From NCBI GenBank assembly GCA_029570205.1, contig JAKQSI010000057.1, positions 1-43,973 on the forward strand: a stretch of 43,973 nucleotides of DNA. Direction: 5' to 3'. Each line of letters starts with the position of its first letter. The stretch's first letter is position 1. The notes beneath the pieces were generated by a model. It was not told where the DNA came from. It saw nothing but the letters and a program-made list of their open reading frames with translations, and made no database searches. Below, one piece after another: positions 12,719-43,720 of the stretch. Position numbers and translations under genes: made by a program. This stretch comes from Candidatus Omnitrophota bacterium (lineage in GTDB: Bacteria; Hinthialibacterota; Hinthialibacteria; Hinthialibacterales; JAKPRU01).

Positions 12719-12750
12719 CGCCAGAGACAGGTTCTTCTGCCTGTCGTGGC
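12719..12750. repeat. Isolated copy of the CAGG/CCTG hairpin repeat
   Basis: GACAGGTTCTTCTGCCTGTC (12726-12745) is 20 nt long, exactly the length of the hairpin cores in the two arrays, and its stem GACAGG/CCTGTC equals the outer six pairs of the 43-kb array. Flanks extend the pairing (CGCCA upstream, TGGCG downstream, small internal loop). It lies 60 nt after the kinase gene and could also act as a terminator-like structure, though no U-run follows. Confidence 0.6.
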
Positions 12751-12886
12751 GGTCTATCGGCAAAGCGCCGGTATCACAACCTTCACCCCAACACCCTTCC
12801 TCCACAACGGTATTAAAAAATAAAATATTTTTGAAAAACACGCTTGATACGCAACGGAGGGGGGATAGATTACGAATCTGTCCAAC

Positions 12887-13215
12887 AAATAGTAGGCAGA
12901 TAGATTGACTATTGAATTGATTAAGGTAAACTCCGTCACCATGACAAAGCCAGATGCACGTTCCCTGAGTCAGGAAACTTTCGAACCGGATTCGCCCAGG
13001 TACAGCCCGACCTGAATCCCGACGAGTTCCTCAATCCCGATGTGAAACAGAACGCGGTGGGCCGTCGGCGCGCCTCCAGCCGGGAGGATAGGATGGCCAA
13101 TGCGCCCGGCTACCTGTGGAGTACCCAGAAACAACCCGACATTGTTCAGAAGTTCTCTCATGCGCCGTCGGTTCGTTACGCGATGGAGTAAACAACAGTT
13201 TCCTGTCTACTATTT
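12887..13215 (+). mobile_element. Deleted IS630-family element (about 330 bp)
   Basis: Terminal inverted repeats AAATAGTAGGCAG (12887-12899) and CTGTCTACTATTT (13203-13215) match at 12 of 13 positions. They bracket two fragments of an IS630-type transposase. An intact element is about 1.0-1.2 kb, so roughly 0.8 kb is missing. The exact outer ends and the TA target duplication could not be fixed by eye. The element cannot transpose by itself, but could be mobilised in trans like a MITE if an active relative exists. Confidence 0.6.
12941..13191 (+). pseudogene. IS630-family transposase remnant
   Basis: The N terminus MTKPDARSLSQETFE (from ATG 12941) is the usual start of IS630-type transposases. 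It then runs within a few codons into RYSP, the beginning of the C-terminal YSPxLNPDE motif; the frame stops at a TGA. In the +1-shifted frame the motif continues as DLNPDEFLNPDVKQNAV and ends RAP-like with FSHAPSVRYAME and TAA at 13189-13191. The Glu in LNPDE is the third acidic residue of the DDE centre. The remnant thus shows a large internal deletion (helix-turn-helix and the first two Asp lost) plus a one-base frameshift inside the YSP/DLNPDE motif. Confidence 0.65.
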
Positions 13216-13321
13216 AGAGTTCGGAGTAATAATCTGCGGGCGTTCGGGCACACAGACATCATTCTATTTCCGGGCGGTTGGACCGAATGGGCGGCTGCCG
13301 GGTATCCCGTTGAAACGTGAC

Positions 13322-39782: not shown

Positions 39783-42152
39783 ATGGTACGCTTTTACAGT
39801 CCTGTCTTCAGTCTCTTCCCCCCGTTCACGTGGCGGAGGTTTCTTCTCCTTTTCTGTGCCTTCTCCATGCTGATGCCGCTTACCATCTTTGCGCAGGACA
39901 CGGCCCCGAACGAGAAGCATCTCTTTGTGTTCGATGTCCTGGATTATTTCGACCGCAACTCGAAACGGACGGCCTCCTGGCAATACGATGTCCTGACCCT
40001 CCTGGCTTCATTGCAGGGCCTCGTCAACCGCCCCGAACCCGGCGGGGGCGTGCCGGACCACCTGCTGTATCTGATCTATATCCGCGATGGCGTCATTTCC
40101 TGGCACCAGAAGGACATAGATCGCTATTGGCTGGAACGCCTGCGTTCTCCCGGACAGCTCCTGGCTGACTATCGAATCATCGAGGTCACCGACCTGGAAT
40201 CATTGCTCCTGGACACGGAAATCCGAGACCACTACCAGAAAGTCGTATTGTGGGATGAGAGAGTGCCTTCCACCGCGAATGTCGCGGCAACAATGTGCGG
40301 CGTCGACAGCCTTCTGCCCGTTCGCTACGACCCCACTCCCGGCAGCCTGTTCTCCGATATTGTGGCGGGTGGCCCGAAAATCATGGTCGGCGGCAGGCTG
40401 GTGGATAACTTCATGGGATATGGAACTATCCCGCAAACCGATCGGGAGTCCACCCGGAGCCGCAAAGGGGATGCTTACCTCTGGGCCAAAATCCAGTATC
40501 TCGATTCCCTTCGCGGCGATCCCTCGGAACTCGCATATTACCTCGATGGATTCGACTGGGACCCCAATCAACCGGGATTCCAATGTCCCGATCTGATCAA
40601 TGCCTGTCTCCTCAATCATGACTTCTTCATCTCCCGAAAAGGTTTCTTCTTTGATCTCAGCCCGTGGTGGGATGAACGCGCAACCGATGAAACATCCCTT
40701 CTTCGGTCCATTGCCGCCGAGGAAATCCGGGACCTCCCCGAGGGCGTCGATCTGGATGTTCTTAAGGAAATCCTCAAGTCCGCCGAGGTCAACACACGCG
40801 GGGAACGCAAAATGATCCGGATCGGCGGATATATCCCCTGGTGGCTCAAATACACCAACCATGCTTCCGTCGGCGGAAAACACACACCCGAAGAAACCCA
40901 GAATGAGTTCATCGCCGTCGCCTCCTGCTTTAACGCATACCTGGAACCGGACGCCTACGGCATGGGAGGGGTCGCCAATACCTCCGTCTTCCAGCATGTC
41001 CGCCTCCAGGAACCATTCCTTCAAAATGCCATCCCGAAACCCAGAAATCTGGAAAAAAAGGTCTACCTGCTTTTCTACATGGGAGACTTCGAATCCGCCT
41101 CCTGGCTGGCCCAGTCGGTTCCGACTTTATGGGATGATGCCTGTCGGGGAAGTGTCCCCCTTGCCTGGGGCATCAACCCCACCTTATCCGACCGGCTCCC
41201 CCAGGTGTTCAATTACCTGTATTTCACGCGCACCGGCAACGACTTCTTCGTCGGCAGTCGGTCCGGCGCCGGGCTGATCAATCCCGGCTTTCTCCTCGAG
41301 GGCAATCGCCCTCACTCCGGCCTCCCCGGCGGCCTGGATATCTGGGTCGCACATAATCGTGTACTCTATCGGCAGTTCGATATTCAAATCACCGGGCTGG
41401 TCGATAACGGCAACGCAGGCGAGATCTCCAAACCTCTCCAGGAGGCCTTTTTCGACTTCTCCCCTCATGGTGTCGGCGCCGCAGGACCGTTCTTTGAACC
41501 GCTTTCTCTGCGCCTCATCCCGTTCCTCCAATACACGGATCATCTCTCCCACCGGATGGAGGAACCCATCGGCAACATGATCCAAACCATTCGAGATCAT
41601 GATCCCGGGGAAAAACCGGCGTTCCAGATCTATCGCTGCACCCTCACTACCCCCACGATTATCTATCTCCTGGCGAAAGAACTCGAACGGCTATTCCCCA
41701 ATCAGTATGAAATCGTTGACCCATACACGTTCTTCTTCCTGTTGCGGGAAAACCTCGGCGGGTCCAACGAGTCCATCGCCCAGTATATCGATCACAACGT
41801 TCCCCAGCGTCTTTCCGTGGGACAGACATTTCAGGCCACGGTCCGGCTGCGAAACGATGGATGGGATACCTGGAACCCGAAGGGAACACCGCCTCAGCAG
41901 AGCTATCGTCTTTGCTACAAATGGCTGTACCATGCTCCGGGCGGCGAGATCGCAGAACTTCCCGGGCGACATAATGTCTATCTTCCCGAGAATGTTCTCA
42001 CCGGCAAATACGTGGATGTCAATCTGCTGATCGAAACGCCCCCGTATCCTATGATCTATCAGCTGCGCTTCTATCTGGATCGTGAGGGCATCGGGCCGTC
42101 TTTGAATTGGAGAGATATCAACGTCATGGTCACCGACGAACAACCTCAATGA
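39783..42152 (+). CDS. Secreted GxGYxYP-domain protein (putative glycoside hydrolase)
   Basis: GGGTGAGGG precedes the ATG at 39783 (a TTG at 39780 is adjacent). A Sec signal peptide (core FLLLFCAFSMLMPLTIFA) opens a 789-residue protein. The GxGYxYP family signature region is present at about 430-510: KKVYLLFYMGDFESASWLAQ, SVPLAWGINPTLSDRLPQVF, GNDFFVGSRSGAGLINPG. In the name-giving motif SGAGYxNP the Tyr is Leu here (GAGLINPG). The N-terminal part has the family's low-complexity order LTLLASLQGLVNR. A C-terminal beta domain follows (about 680-789). Families of this type occur in carbohydrate loci; no activity is established. It is translationally coupled to the methyltransferase. Confidence 0.8.
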   Translation: MVRFYSPVFSLFPPFTWRRFLLLFCAFSMLMPLTIFAQDTAPNEKHLFVFDVLDYFDRNSKRTASWQYDVLTLLASLQGLVNRPEPGGGVPDHLLYLIYIRDGVISWHQKDIDRYWLERLRSPGQLLADYRIIEVTDLESLLLDTEIRDHYQKVVLWDERVPSTANVAATMCGVDSLLPVRYDPTPGSLFSDIVAGGPKIMVGGRLVDNFMGYGTIPQTDRESTRSRKGDAYLWAKIQYLDSLRGDPSELAYYLDGFDWDPNQPGFQCPDLINACLLNHDFFISRKGFFFDLSPWWDERATDETSLLRSIAAEEIRDLPEGVDLDVLKEILKSAEVNTRGERKMIRIGGYIPWWLKYTNHASVGGKHTPEETQNEFIAVASCFNAYLEPDAYGMGGVANTSVFQHVRLQEPFLQNAIPKPRNLEKKVYLLFYMGDFESASWLAQSVPTLWDDACRGSVPLAWGINPTLSDRLPQVFNYLYFTRTGNDFFVGSRSGAGLINPGFLLEGNRPHSGLPGGLDIWVAHNRVLYRQFDIQITGLVDNGNAGEISKPLQEAFFDFSPHGVGAAGPFFEPLSLRLIPFLQYTDHLSHRMEEPIGNMIQTIRDHDPGEKPAFQIYRCTLTTPTIIYLLAKELERLFPNQYEIVDPYTFFFLLRENLGGSNESIAQYIDHNVPQRLSVGQTFQATVRLRNDGWDTWNPKGTPPQQSYRLCYKWLYHAPGGEIAELPGRHNVYLPENVLTGKYVDVNLLIETPPYPMIYQLRFYLDREGIGPSLNWRDINVMVTDEQPQ

Positions 42153-43111
42153 ACCGACTACCGGCCGGATTTCGTCGCAGACGCTTCCGCGCAAGAGTCG
42201 GTTCTGTCTCTCCGCGCCGCCCAAAACAAATATCCGTCTTGCGGCTTGATACGCAATTCGCTCCCGATTCCCACGACCGCCGGGCGCTGCGACAGTACTT
42301 CGAAACCAACCGCTCTTATCTCCGGGACCTCCGGACCCATGACGAACCTTATCATCGGCAGTTCCTGACTCTCGTTCGACAGTGGATTCCCCCAGGGACG
42401 CGTGTGCTGGATGTCGGCTGCGGAACCGGACTCTCCACAGTCCTTCTCTCCCGAGCCGGATACAACACGGTCGGCGTGGACATTTCTTCATTGTTTCTTC
42501 AGGAAGGCGGACAACATGGAGAGGCCGACTTCGTGGCCGCCGATGCCGAAAGTCTTCCCTTTCCGTCGGCGACATTTGGGGCCGTCGTAGCATTCGAATT
42601 CATCGAGCATGTGGCCGATGTCCCTGCGGTTCTCACGGAATTCATTCGAATCCTGAAACCGGGCGGCGTCCTGCTGCTTCATTCGCCCAACCTCTGCTCG
42701 CCGTTCTTCCCTCTTCGGGACCTCTTTTCTCTTTTGCTCGGTGGAAAAGGAAGGCCGGTCTTTGCGGAGACACCGGACCAGGCGTGGCAGTGGCTTGCAA
42801 CCAACCTGAAACACACCGTTCATAAATTCCGCAGCCCGTTCCCGGACTTTCTGTATCGCAAACCGGACTTGTCTGGACAATACGCAGGCGGGGATGCCGA
42901 CAGTGTCTATCTCGCTTGCCAGATTGACCTTGCTTACTATCTGCGCCGTCAACACTTAGACATACTTCAGAAAGCCTGGGGTGAAAAAAGGCTTTCGCGA
43001 TGGCTTGCCTTTCTGCTGCCGAATTGCGCCCCCTATATTGCACTGGTGGCCCGCAAACCTCGTGACGTGAACGAGATTCTTTGTTCGTCGGGCATTCGGC
43101 AGCCGCCCTAG
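42149..43111 (+). CDS. Class I SAM-dependent methyltransferase
   Basis: The ATG at 42149 overlaps the previous stop (ATGA). The 320-residue protein has a basic N terminus (FRRRRFRARVGSVSPRR) and a Methyltransf_11-type Rossmann domain at about 85-220: motif I VLDVGCGTGLSTVLLSRAGY, VGVDIS (acidic residue binding the ribose), ADAESLPFPSATFGAVVAFEF, IEHV, and LTEFIRILKPGGVLLLHSPN. A C-terminal helical region follows. The substrate is unknown; coupling to the GxGYxYP gene hints at a small molecule or glycan. The stop codon TAG (43109-43111) is also the first bases of the repeat array. Confidence 0.88.
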   Translation: MNRLPAGFRRRRFRARVGSVSPRRPKQISVLRLDTQFAPDSHDRRALRQYFETNRSYLRDLRTHDEPYHRQFLTLVRQWIPPGTRVLDVGCGTGLSTVLLSRAGYNTVGVDISSLFLQEGGQHGEADFVAADAESLPFPSATFGAVVAFEFIEHVADVPAVLTEFIRILKPGGVLLLHSPNLCSPFFPLRDLFSLLLGGKGRPVFAETPDQAWQWLATNLKHTVHKFRSPFPDFLYRKPDLSGQYAGGDADSVYLACQIDLAYYLRRQHLDILQKAWGEKRLSRWLAFLLPNCAPYIALVARKPRDVNEILCSSGIRQPP

Positions 43112-43720
43112 TAGGACAGGCCTCCGTGCCTGTCAATGTACTGGTGCCTGTCAATGCCCTGTACCGGTAGGACAGGCCTCCGTGCCTGTCAATGTACTGA
43201 TGTACCGGTAGGACAGGCCTCCGTGCCTGTCAATGCCCTGTACCGGTAGGACAGGCCTCCGTGCCTGTCGATGCCCTGTACCGGTAGGACAGGCCTCCGT
43301 GCCTGTCGATGCCCTGTACCGGTAGGACAGGCCTCCGTGCCTGTCAATGTACTGATGTACTGGTAGGACAGGCCTCCGTGCCTGTCAATGCCCTGTACCG
43401 GTAGGACAGGCCTTCGTGCCTGTCAATGTACTGATGTACCGGTAGGACAGGCCTCCGTGCCTGTCAATGTACTGATGTACTGGTAGGACAGGCCTCCGTG
43501 CCTGTCAATGTACTGATGTACCGGTAGGACAGGCCTCCGTGCCTGTCAATGTACTGGTGCCTGTCAATGCCCTGTACCGGTAGGACAGGCCTCCGTGCCT
43601 GTCGATGCCCTGTACCGGTAGGACAGGCCTCCGTGCCTGTCAATGCCCTGTACCGGTAGGACAGGCCTCCGTGCCTGTCAATGTACTGTACTGGTAGGAC
43701 AGGCCTCTGTGCCTGTCGAT
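43110..43720. repeat. Tandem array of 15 hairpin repeats (38/41/56-bp units)
   Basis: Fifteen copies of GACAGGCCTCCGTGCCTGTC (7-bp stem GACAGGC/GCCTGTC, loop CTCCGT; two copies have single loop changes) are joined by GTACC-rich linkers. Unit lengths are 38 bp (linker ...AATGCCCTGTACCGGTAG), 41 bp (...AATGTACTGATGTACCGGTAG) and 56 bp (two units at the start and at 43539, which contain both). The linker itself holds the palindrome TACCGGTA. The array begins inside the methyltransferase stop codon. Variation in linkers shows recombination between unit types. It shares its plan with the array at 1-179. Confidence 0.95.

Follow-up and report, generated by a model that had tools for sequence, protein, structure and literature searches.

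The two hairpin arrays in the 43,973-nt window, which is the entire contig G000:C117:1-43973 of the 4.39-Mb source genome (G000), represent two subfamilies of a repeat that occurs throughout that genome, and we consider it highly probable (about 0.92) that they are GTAG-tagged REPs accompanying their own REP-associated tyrosine transposase (RAYT), that is, a REPtron. We assign the units in this way since the same genome has a RAYT gene with arrays of this hairpin on either side. Such a combination of GTAG-REP and REPtron is a known kind of system and not categorically new. Its significance is that two previously unexplained arrays can be understood as a transposase-associated mobile repeat, in a lineage that has received little study.

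The left array (positions 1-171, + strand) comprises five GTAG-REP units with scores of 33.6-41.3 bits against the covariance model of the family. Its tags lie at 16, 49, 82 and 115, with a degenerate one at 148, giving a period of 33 nt, and the array is cut by the contig end and hence continues beyond the contig. The right array (43111-43717, + strand) is a head-to-tail tandem of 15 units (37.5-41.6 bits), with spacings of mostly 38 and 41 nt. The left subfamily is GCCAGGC-GTCTC-T-GCCTGGC and the right is GACAGGC-CTCCG-T-GCCTGTC. Their 20-nt cores, GCCAGGCGTCTCTGCCTGGC and GACAGGCCTCCGTGCCTGTC respectively, and a stray core, GACAGGTTCTTCTGCCTGTC (12726-12745), are present as written and at the places given in a preliminary description of this DNA, and the two-sided swap of the second stem pair from C-G to A-T that it noted between the arrays is real. 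The window thus carries an array in or near each contig end, and since arrays are also found at contig ends in C14, C16, C19 and C69, it is probable that the assembly breaks at these repeats. A methyltransferase-like gene (42107-43111, + strand) has its TAG stop codon (43109-43111) overlapping the first tag of the right array; its ortholog in G001, a genome of the same genus, diverges at this first tag and uses a different stop. The window also contains repeats of other kinds. A 40-nt stretch (1413-1453) within a YfhO-like gene (363-2831) has dozens of matches at 83-95% identity in G001 and in G002, the latter also of the same genus, and represents another dispersed repeat, read through in the gene. 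Between 200 and 43080, with the arrays excluded, the count of 20-nt hairpins with a 6-bp stem is 27, compared with 12.5 (sd 3.6) in simulated sequence, an excess that may consist of other palindromic repeats or terminators.

One stem variant of the hairpin has 261 matches across the source genome and none in the reversed control. Using 56 distinct elements, we built a covariance model of the kind that the preliminary description had suggested for scanning the source and related genomes; it recovered at least 255 matches in G000, at least 109 in G001 and at least 184 in G002, these counts being lower bounds as 150 candidates were scored per genome. There were no matches among the candidates scored in six genomes of the same order, and at least 14-16 in each of two more distant genomes. 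In approximately 370 kb of G000 stretches picked around matches, there are 284 elements, which form 60 clusters, including 18 singletons. The unit consists of a 5' GTAG or GTGG tag followed by the 20-nt palindrome: the four bases 5' of the hairpin are GTAG in 179 of 284 elements and GTGG in 67, such that about 87% are tagged, and GTAG is enriched 128 times 5' of 20-nt hairpins. The 3' side of the hairpin has no conservation matching the 5' tag. Neighbouring elements, spaced 25-41 nt apart, are mainly head-to-tail, with 168 in the same orientation and 56 in the opposite one. When genes were roughly called, 46 of 54 clusters proved to be intergenic, though 83% of the sequence was called coding. 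The sites also differ between species: at the left-array site G001 lacks a REP, G002 has an inverted pair and G000 carries at least five copies in tandem, while the right-array site has 15 copies in G000 and none in G001.

The hairpin structure, rather than the stem sequence, is maintained, as had been proposed from the window. Across clusters, stem pair 2 is A-T, C-G or T-A with few mismatches, and for the inner pair (core positions 8 and 12), after which comes an unpaired T, either C-G or G-C is found. For the 56 distinct G000 elements, 96.4% of the pairing cells are paired compared with 85.3% in shuffles, and there are 43 two-sided changes compared with 16.9; the covariation score is 0.295 as against 0.116 in shuffles and about 0.05 or less for slid structures. 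Both covariation beyond chance and further copies in the genome were therefore found. Since the 56 rows are related and their structure was derived from the consensus, more weight is given to a test across many phyla, in which sites beside RAYT relatives were selected by tag and loop alone (GTRG-N7-GTCYC-N7). Choosing sites in this way, with altered-tag and altered-loop controls, avoids a selection bias when hairpins are counted. Near the RAYT relatives, 112 of 124 sites pair at 6-7 of the 7 positions, with 44 different stems, while the altered-tag and altered-loop control sites are rare and have no such pairing. The GTRG-tag/loop sites are also concentrated around the transposases (124 in 112 kb near RAYTs vs 18 in 220 kb farther off). 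The conserved unit is the tag plus the hairpin, and in different phyla the RAYT relatives have GTRG-tagged hairpins on their flanks, with stems that differ. This RAYT lineage follows one rule across phyla, of a fixed tag, a fixed loop and a free but paired stem, which makes the co-evolution of transposase and repeat measurable.

The RAYT gene (G000:C89:46017-46526, 170 aa) has an array of this hairpin on each side. Its product scores 86.6 bits against the NCBIfam model for REP-associated tyrosine transposases, NF047646 (cut-off 80), and its profile finds the TnpA_REP structure 4er8 at 6e-11. The predicted structure (pLDDT 83) has as its best solved-structure match the same 4er8, TnpA_REP bound to a REP hairpin (E 5e-7). 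The HuH histidines H81 and H83 and the catalytic Y141 are invariant in A2. The protein therefore has the Y1 fold with HuH and Tyr, a score above the curated cut-off and cognate flanking REPs, as is expected of a RAYT/TnpA_REP. Its motifs are DHVH, WQ and YISKNP, of which the first two fit RAYT subclass 2.7 ([ND]HVH, WQ, YI[LR][NQ]NP; PMC6006769) and the third does not. A RAYT gene 90% identical to it and flanked by units of the hairpin family is present in G002 and in a Candidatus Omnitrophota bacterium record. The source genome encodes several Y1 transposases, and among those whose surroundings were read (C48, C51 and C89) only the one at C89 is flanked by this hairpin; one further Y1 transposase lies at C126. 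The transposases at L021 (G000:C48:81488) and L019 (G000:C51:63620) were considered as servers of this hairpin and rejected because they are flanked by other repeats. Each has its own, different array, these arrays consisting of GCGGGAGCTGACGCTCCCGC units and of longer units with several hairpins.

The units closely resemble the published GTAG-tagged REP families, which have an unpaired 5' GTAG, with GTGG in the Opitutus terrae GTAG-20 family, and have been reported from Verrucomicrobia and Planctomycetes (Di Nocera et al. 2013, PMC3733652). Shared with them are a small (20-40 bp) palindrome with a 6-9 bp stem, an unpaired 5' tag at one end only, high copy number, clustering, a mostly extragenic location, subfamilies with alternative complementary stem pairs and the association with a RAYT gene. 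Unlike them, the present family has an unpaired T after the inner pair, and its subfamilies have that pair in opposite orientations. A further difference is the predominance of head-to-tail tandem arrays, since the published families occur mostly as inverted pairs and head-head pairs are typical of them, albeit not universal (PMC3733652); here such pairs are not the main multi-copy form. We counted this difference against the REP/RAYT reading, together with the finding that G001, whose assembly is in 810 pieces, has the repeats and yet no RAYT was found in it. Like the REPs of Stenotrophomonas (SMAG) and Pseudomonas, which belong with RAYT group 3, subclass 2.5, the units have a tag at the foot of a short hairpin and conserved loop bases; unlike in those REPs, the loop is GTCYC/CTCYG. 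The E. coli REPs are longer than the units of this family. The E. coli REP/TnpA_REP system (4er8; Corneloup et al. 2021, PMC8266576) has in common with the present one the RAYT fold with HuH and Tyr, and the tag and palindrome with an unpaired base, while the proteins are 21% identical in the structural match. The Tyr motif YISKNP also differs from the YI[VI]ANP of subclass 2.5 (PMC6006769).

In the mechanism that we propose, the REPs would be non-autonomous units recognised by the RAYT (TnpA_REP) as folded single-stranded DNA, with the tag being the short sequence that is read 5' of the hairpin. The stem would be free to change provided that both arms change together, copies would land in new intergenic places, and local amplification, perhaps through slippage, recombination or the RAYT acting repeatedly, would give rise to the head-to-tail arrays. 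By analogy with characterised TnpA_REP systems, the C89 RAYT would be expected to recognise the single strand, to cleave it with its HuH/Tyr site and to mobilise the REPs.

A hairpin that is conserved in structure could also be an RNA element, such as a terminator or a processing or mRNA-stability hairpin, that has spread because of its function in transcripts. Many of the hairpins do lie 3' of genes, convergent gene contexts are somewhat over-represented among the clusters, and stem changes of the G-U type occur. Counting against it, the unpaired tag is conserved on one side of the hairpin only and the RAYT gene has arrays on either side; eight clusters lie between divergent genes, the stray hairpin is without a terminator-like T run, and the Rfam search matched two tRNAs and no other family. 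We therefore regard this explanation as improbable, and the evidence points to folded single-stranded DNA that a transposase reads, more than to an RNA motif, while a secondary RNA role for the REPs may exist. Less probable still is that the arrays are ordinary satellite DNA produced by slippage with no transposase involved. Slippage would suit the head-to-tail arrangement and the 25-41 nt periods, and may have caused the arrays to grow, but it would not be expected to produce paired changes at two positions together with a conserved tag, the 18 singleton clusters are spread over the genome, and this very unit is also found on both sides of the RAYT.

The stray hairpin (GACAGG-N8-CCTGTC, + strand), 67 nt downstream of a kinase-TPR gene, had been described as a third copy linking the two arrays. 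It is not established as a copy, and what links the arrays is the 5' GTAG tag and the RAYT. Against the covariance model, where the array units of the window reach 33-42 bits, it scores 8.4 bits (E 2.4), a value also reached by true copies read on the wrong strand and by several noise hits in coding sequence. It has no GT[AG]G tag, reading CAGA in G000 and CAAA in G002, and lacks the inner pair; given the absent tag and the E value, we rejected the idea of an ordinary family copy. It could have arisen by chance, unrelated to the family, a possibility that we place somewhat short of even odds. The window does contain 26 other, unrelated 6-bp hairpins of its size, which together with the low score and the lack of tag and inner pair would agree with a chance origin. 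Against this, the exact GACAGG/CCTGTC stem is expected only 0.007 times per window (GNCAGG stems occur in 0.7% of simulated windows), and at the orthologous spot in the sister species G002 the stem has been kept although the loop has changed. On these grounds it is plausibly, at best, an old and decayed REP. There is no intrinsic terminator at this hairpin, and in G001 the neighbourhood downstream of the kinase-TPR gene is not alignable. Beside it, the intergenic stretches 12796-12864 and 12869-13233 recur elsewhere in G002, which implies that this intergenic region is made of dispersed repeats.

Unexpectedly, distant relatives of the RAYT were also found in frame inside host genes. Among 63 RAYT genes examined, mostly fetched as relatives by one protein query and so no random sample, 30 lie within a longer open frame that extends for more than 200 residues upstream of the RAYT and for more than 100 beyond it. 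Loci with embedded RAYTs include L077, L079, L080, L084, L087, L092, L094, L097, L099, L102, L104, L106, L107, L109, L112, L123, L127, L130, L131 and L071, the last (G002:C679) being in the window's own genus, within a D12-type DNA methylase. The host domains identified with Pfam around embedded RAYTs are PglX, IspG, LeuS, MetH, CarB, PurH, DinG, ValS, XseA, DnaE, MmeI, HsdR-type helicase and SNF2 helicase. Chance open frames were rejected as an explanation since one and the same frame has host domains on either side of the insert and there are also empty host genes. All 30 have kept the metal-binding histidines and 29 the tyrosine, and the REPs flanking the embedded RAYTs are translated through. 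It is very likely that RAYT relatives and their REPs are in-frame passengers in housekeeping and defence genes, occupying an intein-like niche without known splicing, where the host protein would be produced with a transposase domain, catalytically intact, in one of its loops. Six Verrucomicrobia genomes, two of which are isolates, have the RAYT-interrupted IspG as the sole one found. Isolates with an embedded RAYT include Luteolibacter pohnpeiensis, in IspG, and Lamprocystis purpurea, in PglX. Since the interrupted gene is the only copy found, we infer that such fused host proteins work. LeuS is interrupted at the identical site, in the editing domain after the motif FGLP..QVV, in three genomes (L084, L123, L196) and uninterrupted in two (L193, L195). 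Of the LeuS-borne RAYTs, L084 and L123 were placed in the tree, where they are not sisters (moderate support), which hints at repeated insertion at one site.

Whole RAYTs in frame inside essential genes look new. REP-only in-frame insertions are already known (PMC3733652), whereas no earlier report of a whole-RAYT insertion was found in a literature search that covered few subscription papers or domain databases. The palindromic repeats of Rickettsia (RPE) and the intragenic REPs of Opitutus terrae (PMC3733652) are likewise read through in frame inside genes, but those are the repeat only, while the relatives described here carry a whole RAYT along with the repeats. The embedded RAYTs raise the questions of how an essential enzyme tolerates a transposase, whether the protein releases it and whether an essential host guards it from loss. 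Separately, in a genome of the same class as the source, an Eco57I-type methylase (L167, G013:C191) contains a Y1 transposase domain.
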